64,000 nt of DNA from the NCBI GenBank assembly GCA_020853095.1, contig JADYZN010000055.1:1-64000 (forward strand), in the 5' to 3' direction. Numbering within the stretch: the first letter of the stretch is position 1; every line of letters starts with the position of its first letter. The DNA is from Phycisphaerales bacterium. Its GTDB lineage: Bacteria > Planctomycetota > Phycisphaerae > Tepidisphaerales > Tepidisphaeraceae. Under the pieces are notes generated by a model that was not told the DNA's origin, did no database searches, and saw only the letters and a program-made list of their open reading frames with translations. Shown piece after piece: positions 17,274 to 25,739 of the stretch. The position numbers were made by a program, and so were the translations under genes.

Positions 17274-18719
17274 ATGGGATTATTCACACGAAACAATCAG
17301 GTGACGGCCACGGTGACGCCTTCGCCGGCGGCGGGCAATTCGGCGCCGATCGTCGATCCGCCGGCGGCTCTAGCGGCGGCGACGCCGGCGCCAGCGGCCC
17401 CCAGGCCGGCGCCCGCGGCAGTGCCTCCGCAGCAGACCGAACGGCAGATCTACCTTCAGCAGTTGAAGGTTCGTCTGCACCAGCAACTGGTGGAACGTCT
17501 GGACATGCAGAACATGCGGGCTTTGCCGCCGGAGGTGGTGAGGGCCGAGGTGCGGGTGCTGATCCGCGAGCTGTGCCAGTCGGAGAAGAGCCTGATCAAC
17601 CAGTCGGAGCAGGAAAAGCTCATGGACGACGTCATGGATGAGACGTTCGGCCTTGGGCCGCTGGAGACGTTGTTGAAGGACCCGACGATCACCGACATCC
17701 TGGTCAACAAGTTCGACCGCATCTATTGCGAAAAGCGGGGCCGCCTGGAGGCGGTGGACGTGCGATTCCGCGACAACGCGCACCTGCGGCAGATCATCGA
17801 CAGGATCGTGGCGCTGGTGGGCCGGCGGGTGGATGAGATCAGCCCGATGGTGGATGCGCGGTTGACCGATGGTTCGCGCGTGAACGCGATCATTCCGCCG
17901 CTGGCGCTGGATGGCCCGGCGATGTCGATCCGGCGGTTTGGTTCCAAGCCGATGCAACTGGAAGACCTGATCCGCCATGGGGCGTTTCCGCCGGCCGTGA
18001 TGGATTTTCTGTCGGCGGCCGTGCAGGCGCGGGTGAACATTCTGATCAGCGGTGGAACCGGTTCGGGCAAGACGACGTTGTTAAACTGCCTGTCGCGGTA
18101 CGTCCCGACCGACGAGCGCGTCATCACGATCGAGGATGCGGCCGAATTGCAGTTGCAGCAGCCGCACGTGGTTCGACTGGAGACCCGCCCGCCCAACATT
18201 GAAGGCAAGGGCGAAGTCACCCAGCGCGACCTGGTGAAGAACTGTCTGCGAATGCGGCCGGATCGGATCATCATCGGCGAGGTGCGCGGCGGCGAGGCGC
18301 TGGACATGCTCCAGGCGATGAACACCGGTCACGAAGGATCGATGACCACGGTTCACGCCAACAACACGCGCGACGCCCTGGGCCGGCTGGAAGTGATGAT
18401 CGCGATGGCCGGTTACGACATCCCGATGCGGGCCTTGCGGCAACAGGTGGCCAGCGCCATCCAGGTGATCGTGCAGGCCCAACGTCTGCCCGGCGGCAAG
18501 CGCAAAGTGACCCGCGTGAGCGAAATCACGGGGATGGAAGGGGAGCAGATCCAGATGCACGACCTGTTCCACTATGAACAGAAGGGCGTCAACAGCGAAG
18601 GGCACGCGCAGGGACATTTTGTCTGCTCGGGCATCCGGCCGCGCGTGGCTGAACGCATCGAAAACCGGGGCATCCGGCTGCCGATGGACCTGTTCCAGCG
18701 GCGAACCATCGAAGAATAA
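17274..18719 (+). CDS. tadA: Tad secretion ATPase TadA/CpaF
   Basis: Hexameric type II/IV secretion-family ATPase that powers Flp pilus assembly. Ala/Pro-rich N-terminus (about 1-55), an N-terminal domain, then the RecA-like core with Walker [10 protein letters not shown] (about 260), an Asp box ([11 protein letters not shown]), Walker [13 protein letters not shown] (about 330) and a His box (MTTVHAN). 481 residues fits CpaF proteins. Followed by tadB at 27 bases. Confidence 0.96.
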
Positions 18720-18746
18720 ATCCCAACCGACCCAGCGAGGCGCAAG

Positions 18747-19709
18747 ATGATGATCCTACTTCCCATTTTGATCGCGATGACGGTCATGCTGATCGTCTGG
18801 GGCGTCTGGCAGTTGATCGCCGGCGGCGTGTTCGGCGAAAAGAAAAAGCTGGTTCGCCGACTCAGCTCCGAAAGTTCCCGGCCGGTCGAACAGCCGGGCC
18901 AGCGGACCACCGTTCGACTGCAGACGGATGTGACCGGATTTTCGGCCACGTTGATCCGGTGGCGGCCGATGGCCTCGCTCTATCGCCGCATTCTGCACGC
19001 CTATCCGGCCATGACGTTGACGCGGTTTCTGGCCGTGGCGGCCGCGATCGCCTTCTTTTCGGCGTTGATCGTCGGGGCGGTCCTCGGCTCGATCCTGATG
19101 GGCGTCGTGGCCGGGGGGATCGGTGGTTACGTGCCGTTTTTCCTGCTCAACAACAAGCGCAACAAGCGACAAAAGCTGATCGCCCTGCAGATTCCCGAAT
19201 CGCTGGATTTTCTGTCGCGCATCCTCAAGGCCGGACACAGTTTAAGCACCGGCCTGCAAATGATGAGCCAGGAGCTTCCCCAGCCGATCGCCGCCGAATT
19301 CGGGCGTTGCTATGACCAGCACAGCCTCGGCCAGTCGCTGGAAGACTGCCTGCGCGACATGGCCGCCCGCATCGACTCGACCGATTTCGCCTTTTTCGTC
19401 ACCGCGGTGCTGATTCAGCGCCAGACCGGCGGCGATTTGTCCGAGGTGCTCAACAACATCAGCGGCATGATCCGCCAGCGCGTGCGGCTGCAGCAGCACG
19501 TCAAGGCCAAGACGGCCGAAGGGCGGTTCACCGGTTACATCCTGGTCGCCTTTCCGGCCGTGATGTTCGTGGTGGCGTACGTCATGAACCCCGATTACGC
19601 CAGCGTGCTGTTGCACACCTCCACGGGATTGATGCTGCTGGGCATCGCCTTCGGGTTGCAGATGGCCGGTTTGTTCGCCATCCGAAAGATCACGACCGTC
19701 CGGGTGTAA
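18747..19709 (+). CDS. tadB: Tad inner-membrane platform protein TadB
   Basis: 320 residues with the T2SSF-type domain (about 150-280: LQIPESLDFLSRILKAGHSL) and about four membrane helices in pairs (1-27, 88-125, 265-285 and 290-315). With TadC it forms the inner-membrane platform that the TadA ATPase acts on. The position directly after tadA and before tadC is canonical. Confidence 0.93.
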   Translation: MMILLPILIAMTVMLIVWGVWQLIAGGVFGEKKKLVRRLSSESSRPVEQPGQRTTVRLQTDVTGFSATLIRWRPMASLYRRILHAYPAMTLTRFLAVAAAIAFFSALIVGAVLGSILMGVVAGGIGGYVPFFLLNNKRNKRQKLIALQIPESLDFLSRILKAGHSLSTGLQMMSQELPQPIAAEFGRCYDQHSLGQSLEDCLRDMAARIDSTDFAFFVTAVLIQRQTGGDLSEVLNNISGMIRQRVRLQQHVKAKTAEGRFTGYILVAFPAVMFVVAYVMNPDYASVLLHTSTGLMLLGIAFGLQMAGLFAIRKITTVRV

Positions 19710-19733
19710 ACGACAGCGATTGGAGCGGATCAC

Positions 19734-20648
19734 ATGGACCCTAAATTATTGTTTCTCGGATGCACGTTCGGCGCGGTGACGATCATTGCGTATTTCGCGT
19801 CGATGGTGCTGTTGCGCAGCGGCGAGGATCGCGCGTTGCGTTCGCGTCTGAGCGGCGAGGAGAACCAGACCCCGACCCAGCAGGGCAAGGGAAAGTTCGT
19901 TTCGCTGGTGGAGCGATTCAGCCAGGCCGCCGCCAAGCCGTTTATGCCCAAGTCGAGGGAAAAGCAATCCGCGCTGCGGCGGGATCTTGGCTACGCGGGC
20001 ATTTATTCCCCGTCGGCGATCAAGCTGGTGATGGCCTGCAAGTTCAGTTGCCTGATCGCGGGCCTGTTCTGCGGGTATTTTCTGGACTGGATGATGGGCA
20101 CGTCGATGCTGGCGCTGCCGTTGGGCGGGATCATCGGCTATCTCGCCCCCAGGTTGTGGATGCGACTGGCGATCAAATCCAACCAGAAGGCGATGAATTA
20201 CGGCCTGCCGGATGCGCTGGATCTGATGGTGGTCTGCGTCGAGGCGGGGTTGACGATCGACGCCGCCATGCAGCGGGTGGGCCAGGAGATGCAGATCGCC
20301 CATCCGTCCATCAGCCGCGAGCTGGCGATCGCGCACATGGAGACGCGCGTGGGCCTGTCGCGGTCCGAATCGCTCAAGAACCTGGGCGTTCGCACCGGAT
20401 CGACGGCGTTTCAGTCGCTGGCGGCGATGCTCGTGCAGGCCGACCGGTTTGGCACCAGCATCGCTTCGGCGTTGCGCATCCACGCCGAGAGTCTGCGCAA
20501 CAACCGTCAGCACGCGGCCGAGGAACTGGCCGCCAAAGCCTCCGTGAAAATGAGTTTTCCGCTGGTGCTTTTCATCTTCCCGGCCACGTTCATCGTGCTG
20601 GCCGGGCCGACCGTCATCGGTTTGATGAACAGCGCCTTATTTAAGTAG
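19734..20648 (+). CDS. tadC: Tad inner-membrane platform protein TadC
   Basis: 304 residues, second T2SSF-domain protein of the pair (YGLPDALDLMVVCVEAGLTIDAAM near 156-179), with helices at the N-terminus, near 95-135 and at the C-terminus (LVLFIFPATFIVLAGPTVIG). It completes the TadA-TadB-TadC motor. It follows tadB by 24 bases and precedes a small lipoprotein gene. Confidence 0.93.
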   Translation: MDPKLLFLGCTFGAVTIIAYFASMVLLRSGEDRALRSRLSGEENQTPTQQGKGKFVSLVERFSQAAAKPFMPKSREKQSALRRDLGYAGIYSPSAIKLVMACKFSCLIAGLFCGYFLDWMMGTSMLALPLGGIIGYLAPRLWMRLAIKSNQKAMNYGLPDALDLMVVCVEAGLTIDAAMQRVGQEMQIAHPSISRELAIAHMETRVGLSRSESLKNLGVRTGSTAFQSLAAMLVQADRFGTSIASALRIHAESLRNNRQHAAEELAAKASVKMSFPLVLFIFPATFIVLAGPTVIGLMNSALFK

Positions 20649-20677: not shown

Positions 20678-21238
20678 GTGATGGACATGAACGCAATGAT
20701 GAACAATTTTCGCAACACGGCCCTGTCGGTCCTGGGTTTGGCGCTGCTGGCCGGCTGCCACAACAAGGCCAACGAGCCTTCGGCGATGGATTTTCCGAAA
20801 CAGGATGAGGTTCGGTCGATCAACCGGTTCAATGAGGCTCAGTCGGCCGCCGGGGCGCGCAACGATGCGACGCTCTACCCGGTCCATTTCAACGGCTCAG
20901 CGCTCAGCTCGCTGGGTGCGCGCAAGCTGGATGACATGGTGGCCGACGATGATGCGTGCGAACCGATGATGGTTTACGTCAATCTGGACGACAACGACCC
21001 CCGCACCGAGAAGCGCCGATCGGCTGTCGTGGCGTATCTGAAGGATTCGGGTTTGCGCGATGAACAGATCAAGCTGGCCGAAGGTCGCAACCCGGATGTG
21101 CATGCTCCCTCATCGCTGGGCGCATCGCAACTGTATCGGGTTGAGGATGGAAAGCTCAGCAACAACGTCCAGCCTTCTGGTGATGATGGTGCAGGCTCGG
21201 CAGCCCCCGCTGCAAGCAGTTCCGCCAGCGCGAAATAA
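20678..21238 (+). CDS. Lipoprotein at the end of the Tad operon
   Basis: 186 residues with a lipoprotein signal: hydrophobic ALSVLGLALLAGC, lipidated Cys at about residue 27. The mature part contains a segment like a small OmpA-type or BON-like fold (FNGSALSSLGARKLDDMVAD; YLKDSGLRDEQIKLAEG), suggesting peptidoglycan or envelope contact, and ends in an Ala/Ser-rich tail. Position suggests an accessory of the Tad machine in the place where TadD or RcpB pilotins sit elsewhere, but it shows no tetratricopeptide repeats. Function not established. Confidence 0.75.
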   Translation: MMDMNAMMNNFRNTALSVLGLALLAGCHNKANEPSAMDFPKQDEVRSINRFNEAQSAAGARNDATLYPVHFNGSALSSLGARKLDDMVADDDACEPMMVYVNLDDNDPRTEKRRSAVVAYLKDSGLRDEQIKLAEGRNPDVHAPSSLGASQLYRVEDGKLSNNVQPSGDDGAGSAAPAASSSASAK

Positions 21239-21298
21239 CGCGCTGATGGACTGTTGACGGCGTCTTCCGGAGTGGAGAGCCGGGGCGGCTCAACGGTA

Positions 21299-21392
21299 GG
21301 CCATGGAATCCAAGCCTCAGAAAGGCTTGTTTCCATGGCCTGTCGTCGTTGATATGATAACCGTCATAAGCCTTGCATGGTCAAAGGCTTAT
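21299..21392. repeat. Two tandem hairpins after the Tad operon
   Basis: Hairpin A: 21299-21308 pairs perfectly with 21331-21340, and inside it AAGCCT (21312-21317) pairs with AGGCTT (21323-21328). Hairpin B: 21366-21374 pairs perfectly with 21384-21392 and again contains AAGCCTT/AAGGCTT. Neither is followed by a T-run. Both share the AAGCCT core and a CATGG nearby. They may protect or end the tad mRNA, or be a mobile palindromic element. Confidence 0.6.
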
Positions 21393-21462
21393 CCTGATGG
21401 ATGCCGATGGATGGCGATCCAAACCCGATGGCCCGCCGGTTCGTATCAATCGGTGGAGCGCC

Positions 21463-21490
21463 TTGACGGATGATTCGGGTGGGGCATACT
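21463..21490 (+). promoter_or_regulatory. Promoter for the secA leader transcript
   Basis: TTGACG (21463-21468) and CATACT (21485-21490) with a 16-base spacer, close to the housekeeping consensus. Transcription should start near 21497, giving a 5' leader of about 20 bases before the small ORF at 21516. Confidence 0.6.
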
Positions 21491-21515
21491 TGCCCCCCTT
21501 GTAGTGACAGGTTTT

Positions 21516-21821
21516 ATGCGTCGATACCGGCATATATTGGCCGCGGTGATCGTGACGACGGCGTTGTGCGCCGATCGGGTCGGCGCGCCCGCCTCGGCGA
21601 TGCCGCCGCAATTTGTGCAGTTGGCCCGCCAGCTCGCCGGCCGGCTGGGCGCGGGATTGCGCAAGACCGTGCCGATGACCCGGCTGGCCGTCGCGGCCCA
21701 TCATCGCATCGCATCGCCCGCCCAGCGGGTTGATGCCCGGCCGGTCGATGCGATCGTCCATCGAGTTGAGTGCCCGCCATTTCGTTTTCGCCTTCCTCCG
21801 CCCGCTTTGATCCTGGCTTGA
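21516..21821 (+). CDS. Short secreted leader peptide upstream of secA (SecM-like candidate)
   Basis: 101 residues from the ATG at 21516 (a GTG at 21504 is also in frame). It begins with a signal peptide: RRY-RH, hydrophobic LAAVIVTTALCA, likely cleavage at ASA near residue 28. The mature part is basic and ends CPPFRFRLPPPALILA, with a PPP run six codons before the stop. It lies between a good promoter and secA, 96 bases before the secA ATG, as secM does in E. coli. The reading as an arrest peptide that reports secretion activity is inference; no sequence similarity to SecM beyond this layout and the R-x-PPP ending can be claimed. Confidence 0.55.
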   Translation: MRRYRHILAAVIVTTALCADRVGAPASAMPPQFVQLARQLAGRLGAGLRKTVPMTRLAVAAHHRIASPAQRVDARPVDAIVHRVECPPFRFRLPPPALILA

Positions 21822-21917
21822 TCTTTCTTGATGACACCGGCCGCACGGCGGCGGATTTCATCGTTTCCCGGCCGTATTTTCCGCACGTTTTTTGACCAAT
21901 CGACTTCAGGTGATCTC

Positions 21918-25739
<3,822 letters not shown>

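Follow-up and report, generated by a model that had tools for sequence, protein, structure and literature searches.

An upstream open reading frame before secA of a Phycisphaerales bacterium as a candidate export-monitoring arrest peptide of the uA_LPPP group

The uA_LPPP group was defined by Fujiwara et al. 2024 (Nat Commun 15:2711, PMC10987492) from upstream open reading frames (uORFs) of secA in Planctomycetota, with hosts in the orders Phycisphaerales, UBA1161 and WQYP01. According to the main text of that survey, its members carry a signal sequence and, within their last 15 residues, either LPPP (45 of 52) or XPPP. One homolog is a strong arrest peptide on B. subtilis ribosomes (fAP of 1 in vitro, TAI of 22.4 in vivo); the same homolog gives values of 0.51 in vitro and 1.59 in vivo with E. 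coli, weak in the latter case, and the arrest in E. coli may be artefactual, owing to a lack of EF-P (PMC10987492). Toeprinting of one homolog placed the third codon of LPPP, that of the second proline, in the P site, and replacement of the Leu and Pro residues weakened the arrest; in the main text, induction of the downstream gene was tested only for uDF_RQH_Enterobacterales (PMC10987492). Here, we analyze the uORF that precedes secA in a stretch of 64,000 nucleotides (the window), which very probably encodes a small secreted peptide that stalls its own ribosome to report protein export.

The open reading frame and its surroundings

The features of the locus are listed below.

21463–21490, + strand: promoter-like site TTGACG-N16-CATACT, from a consensus scan, in a block alignable in three genus sequences
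21504, + strand: alternative uORF start GTG, 12 nt upstream of the ATG
21516–21821, + strand: uORF of 101 aa, by sequence a member of the uA_LPPP group, kept before secA in the family (21/21 genomes)
21516–21599, + strand: predicted signal peptide MRRYRHILAAVIVTTALCADRVGAPASA, from hydropathy and a conserved block, with the cleavage site placed by the A-x-A rule
21777–21803, + strand: predicted arrest motif P-F-R-F-R-L-P-P-P (residues 88–96; family consensus PF[QR]FRLPPP), with only synonymous changes in the genus
21798–21803, + strand: predicted stall point, with the second Pro codon (CCG) in the P site and the third (CCC) in the A site, transferred from the published uA_LPPP toeprint (PMC10987492)
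21822–21917, + strand: intergenic leader, 96 nt, with a weak hairpin near 21830–21863 (L055, a relative, has one too); folding energy in the window no better than that of shuffles (z 0.45)
21908–21915, + strand: secA Shine-Dalgarno sequence AGGTGATC, read from the sequence
21918–25739, + strand: secA, 1273 aa (Pfam SecA_DEAD, 1.7e-105; P-loop_SecA, SecA_SW, SecA_PP_bind, SEC-C)

The uORF runs for 101 codons from ATG 21516 to the TGA ending at 21821, 96 nt ahead of the secA ATG at 21918; its protein begins with MRRYRHILAAVIVTTALCADRVGAPASAMPPQ and ends with VHRVECPPFRFRLPPPALILA (C-terminus PFRFRLPPPALILA). The N-terminus combines a basic start, a 14-residue hydropathy maximum of 2.13 and an A-x-A before residue 29, the signal peptide being predicted from hydropathy and the A-x-A rule. 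From the end of the hydrophobic core, 75 residues lead to PPP; LPPP occupies residues 93–96 in a core that reads RLPPP, and the third Pro codon lies six codons ahead of the stop. If the published toeprint is transferred by analogy, codon 95 (21798–21800) would occupy the P site and codon 96 (21801–21803) the A site. The uORF gave no match in Pfam and none better than E 0.13 in NCBIfam, and no convincing paralogue was found elsewhere in the genome (best other E 0.01).

Two 9/12 promoter matches were found in 800 nt, compared with 0.3 expected in shuffles, and the block that holds the listed site is alignable in two congeneric copies besides the window, with TTGA and ATACT/AAACT kept. The secA Shine-Dalgarno sequence is complementary to GATCACCT, the conserved 3′ tail of 16S rRNA. 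A secA start at TTG 21828 is possible in frame but was rejected, as ATG 21918 has the Shine-Dalgarno sequence and agrees with the start in relatives. A preliminary description of the locus had named the promoter, the 101-residue ORF with its signal peptide and C-terminus, a polyproline run six codons before the stop, and secA 96 bases further on; coordinates and translation agree with this account, the SecA_DEAD match and four further SecA domains confirm the identity of the downstream gene, and the distance of six codons holds for the third Pro codon.

Upstream of the secA unit, translations of 17274–20648 read as a CpaF/TadA-like ATPase and two TadB/TadC-like membrane proteins. A small lipoprotein-like ORF of no assigned family (20678–21238, LLAGC lipobox) separates the leader of secA from these tad-like pilus genes.

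Distribution of the leader and selection on the peptide

In the window's family, every genome in which the region upstream of secA is intact (21 of 21) has a uORF at this position with PPP near the stop, and all but one of these uORFs have LPPP; one assembly (G019, locus L032) was left out of this count, as NN within its ORF makes it unreadable. Each of the 20 other family genomes with a readable secA upstream region holds an ORF with a hydrophobic N-terminal stretch and PPP in its last residues. The same leader type recurs elsewhere in the class, in families f4 (10/10, one with IPPP), f15 (4/4), f18 (10/10), f21 (9/9) and f23 (1/1). It was not seen in f8, f9, f11, f14, f16, f19, f20, f22 and f25, each represented by one or two genomes, nor in the more distant secA loci of the SecA-tree set. 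When an open frame of at least 80 codons was required, with its stop 20–350 nt before secA and [LM]PPP in the last 12 residues, 55 of 74 secA upstream regions in the class were positive; the reverse strand gave none, and the expectation under dinucleotide shuffling was 0.1. The window contains 390 stop-to-stop ORFs that reach 80 codons or more; of these, the secA uORF alone carries [LM]PPP in its last 12 residues. Conservation in the family, and the near absence of such frames expected in shuffled upstream sequence, show that it is not a chance ORF.

The SecA tree, built from that set of loci and the window, places all 12 carriers in one group (100/100 support) and the window with G024; as f4, f5, f15, f18 and f21 were left out of the tree, it leaves a single origin of the leader unsettled. 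G024 belongs to the window's family, which includes the MAG UBA1161 (G024:C52/L063, L006) with the same uORF, the GTDB order name being presumptive. From this independent census, combined with the selection analysis below, LPPP leaders of secA emerge as near-universal, not merely patchy, in several Phycisphaerae families.

Sharing across the class is confined mainly to the signal and the last residues, with a variable middle. In the window's family (22 sequences), the C-terminal consensus is P-F-[QR]-F-R-L-P-P-P, after which 2–5 residues remain up to the stop, with R at −2 in 17 sequences, L at −1 in 21 and PPP in all 22, and the hydrophobic core lies 74–84 residues from PPP in 21 of the 22, a span sufficient for the signal to emerge from the ribosome. 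The 33 sequences of f4, f15, f18, f21 and f23 instead read L-[LI]-[ND]-L-P-P-P, position −2 being D or N in 25 of them. Family f5 (L075–L084, L133–L145) has leaders at the same place with the cores LAPP, LPPP, RPPP, MPPP or TPPP; LAPP is not among the motifs named in the main text of the 2024 survey (PMC10987492). One member of the window's family, L073 (G012), reads CLPQPPPVV, a natural core variant with an extra residue between LP and PPP.

Three versions of the uORF were compared within the genus, those of the window, L055 and L131. Over the whole ORF, dN/dS is 0.20–0.24, and residues 1–60 give 0.15–0.31. The last 14 codons give 0, 0.02 and 0.08, with almost only synonymous changes, and each codon of F-R-F-R-L-P-P-P is either unchanged or synonymous. 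The C-terminus is under purifying selection, and, as its changes are synonymous, it is the peptide rather than the RNA sequence that is conserved there. The preliminary description had suggested a search for the ORF upstream of secA in related genomes, and would have been contradicted by an ORF not kept next to secA or by C-terminal residues that vary freely; neither is the case, as the ORF is present throughout the family and its C-terminus is constrained.

The congeneric assembly G009 holds two different uORF–secA starts, L131 (G009:C135:2500–3921) and L055 (G009:C149). One of the two is on a short contig, and strain mixture, contamination or a real duplicate are possible sources.

The leader RNA and the proposed pairing

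In the preliminary description, GATCCTG (21809–21815) was proposed to pair with 21907–21915 so as to mask the secA start, which a paused ribosome would then free. Both elements, GATCCTG and CAGGTGATC, are present as letters, but the two extra bases (GT) in the latter would give a bulged 7-bp helix and no clean pairing, and both halves are changed in L055 (G009), which has GATCATC and CAGGTGTTC in their place. A stalled ribosome would cover most of 21809–21815, given a toeprint edge some 16 nt away from the P site. In partition-function folds, the secA start of the window was equally accessible with and without masking of the predicted footprint of the stalled ribosome (0.44 vs 0.44); in only 5 of 21 genomes did masking clearly raise accessibility. 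Duplexes between footprint and start were no better than when the targets were shuffled: z averaged −0.28 (standard error 0.24) and was −0.15 for the window. Intergenic folding gave a mean z of −0.61 (0.31) across loci. The folding check that had been suggested lends the pairing no support (window intergenic z 0.45), nor do these predictions support the proposed unmasking of the start by a paused ribosome.

Across 22 loci, single-sequence predictions, with which a species-specific switch would be compatible, revealed no consistent pairing or structure that sequesters the secA start, and a search of Rfam over 21300–22050 returned nothing meaningful. Over the class, uORF stop and secA lie between 65 and 317 nt apart, a spread that does not point to a single fixed RNA switch. 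The GATC/CTG pairing was rejected as a conserved mechanism, since the closest relative has lost both halves and the 22 loci show no consistent pairing, and we regard it as unlikely.

Export monitoring and comparison with known systems

We consider it highly likely that the product of the secA uORF belongs to the uA_LPPP group and serves as a Sec-exported monitoring substrate, which would stall to report export and so raise secA. The promoter at 21463–21490 would transcribe the uORF, probably together with secA, and the N-terminal signal sequence would bring the nascent chain to the Sec machinery. Active export would pull on the chain and release the stall; under poor export the ribosome would stay stalled and, through an effect on the mRNA leader that separates the uORF from secA, would increase secA expression and raise SecA. 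For the window's own sequence we infer stalling, force-dependent release and secA induction, with release by the pull of export and the rise of SecA upon poor export drawn by analogy from SecM. As far as the stall, the mechanism is well supported by sequence comparison, and the link to secA is presumed. No report was found in the literature of arrest or secA induction measured in its own host for any family member.

An ordinary small secreted (periplasmic) protein, co-transcribed with secA by chance and using PPP structurally, would also have a signal sequence, and the N-terminal two thirds are conserved in the genus as well (the dN/dS range given above for residues 1–60). Such a protein is very unlikely, since the class shares mainly the signal and the last residues around a variable middle of no known family, since the PPP run lies inside the last 12 residues at 57 loci, as expected for arrest at the chain end (a position that the scan required and that 21/21 family genomes passed), and since stalling has been demonstrated for a homolog group that has this motif (PMC10987492). 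Plain EF-P-dependent polyproline pausing, which would report EF-P rather than Sec activity, also appears very unlikely: PPP is a classic EF-P substrate and the uA_LPPP arrest in E. coli is perhaps an artefact of absent EF-P, but the Leu ahead of PPP is important on B. subtilis ribosomes, arrest also occurs in B. subtilis cells, which have EF-P (PMC10987492), and in the window's family F-x-F-R-L is conserved before PPP in a peptide that carries an export signal. The genome encodes one EF-P (L132:1497–2049, the sole EF-P match), which could relieve plain PPP pausing. Its loop tip reads TPGNLRAKV, with Asn at the position of E. coli Lys34, the modified residue at the loop tip of that protein; for a factor faced with PPP, Asn is an unusual residue at the tip.

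If the uORF is a Sec-exported monitoring substrate, its output step might be transcription attenuation (Rho access or a terminator) instead of Shine-Dalgarno release. The lack of a conserved Shine-Dalgarno-sequestering structure would suit this variant; no intrinsic terminator was found in 21200–22000, and we consider attenuation rather unlikely.

The uORF shares with E. coli SecM its place directly upstream of secA and, as predicted, its secretion, a stall close to the C-terminus while Pro occupies the A site, and a presumed role as export sensor, and the view of the preliminary description, a secreted SecM-like monitoring peptide before secA, gains from the selection on the C-terminus and the conservation next to secA; at group level, its arrest idea is matched by homologs of the same motif and gene order that stall at these Pro codons (PMC10987492). 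In sequence the two differ: the C-terminus (ECPPFRFRLPPPALILA) lacks FxxxxWIxxxxGIRAGP, with PPP in place of RAGP, and membership of the SecM family was rejected on this ground. The E. coli RNA stem that hides the secA Shine-Dalgarno sequence has no conserved counterpart found at window-type loci. VemP and MifM follow the same logic of a monitoring substrate but differ in target genes (secDF2, yidC2) and motifs.

To uA_LPPP the likeness is closest: a secA uORF in Planctomycetota, of 101 aa and no annotated function, directly before secA (96 nt), with an N-terminal signal sequence, a variable N-terminal part, LPPP in the last 15 residues and a spacer of more than 30 residues from signal to motif (75 from hydrophobic core to PPP). 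By its sequence the uORF fits this group, whose existence and stalling have been known since 2024, whether as a new member or as one already within the published supplementary list; PF[QR]FR before LPPP and the window sequence itself are absent from the paper's main text and may be among its 52 sequences (PMC10987492).

The RAPP-type peptides (ApdA, ApdP, ApcA and the RQH family) are likewise secreted or membrane peptides from uORFs of sec or yidC genes and have a short Pro-rich C-terminal core, with Pro in the P and A sites; the uORF core would be LPP|P against RAP|P (L for R, P for A). Membership of the RAPP type (RQH) was rejected, the core RLPPP being none of RAPP, RGPP, HAPP, QAPP, RAGP and RAPG. 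We tentatively propose, as a possibility short of the probable, that the arrest element of the window's order is an extended, lineage-specific PF[QR]FR-LPPP, unlike the [LI][LI][ND]-LPPP of sister families, and that LAPP, RPPP and LPPP in f5 belong to one positionally orthologous uORF drifting between LPPP and RAPP solutions. If so, the secA leader would offer a natural series for the evolution of an arrest core on one ribosome lineage. The lineage-specific residues before LPPP may contact the exit tunnel. Possibly new are the order-specific PF[QR]FR-LPPP, the near-universality of the LPPP leaders, and the LAPP and RPPP variants of one family that bridge to RAPP peptides, the f5 cores of this same class being intermediate between the LPPP and RAPP types.
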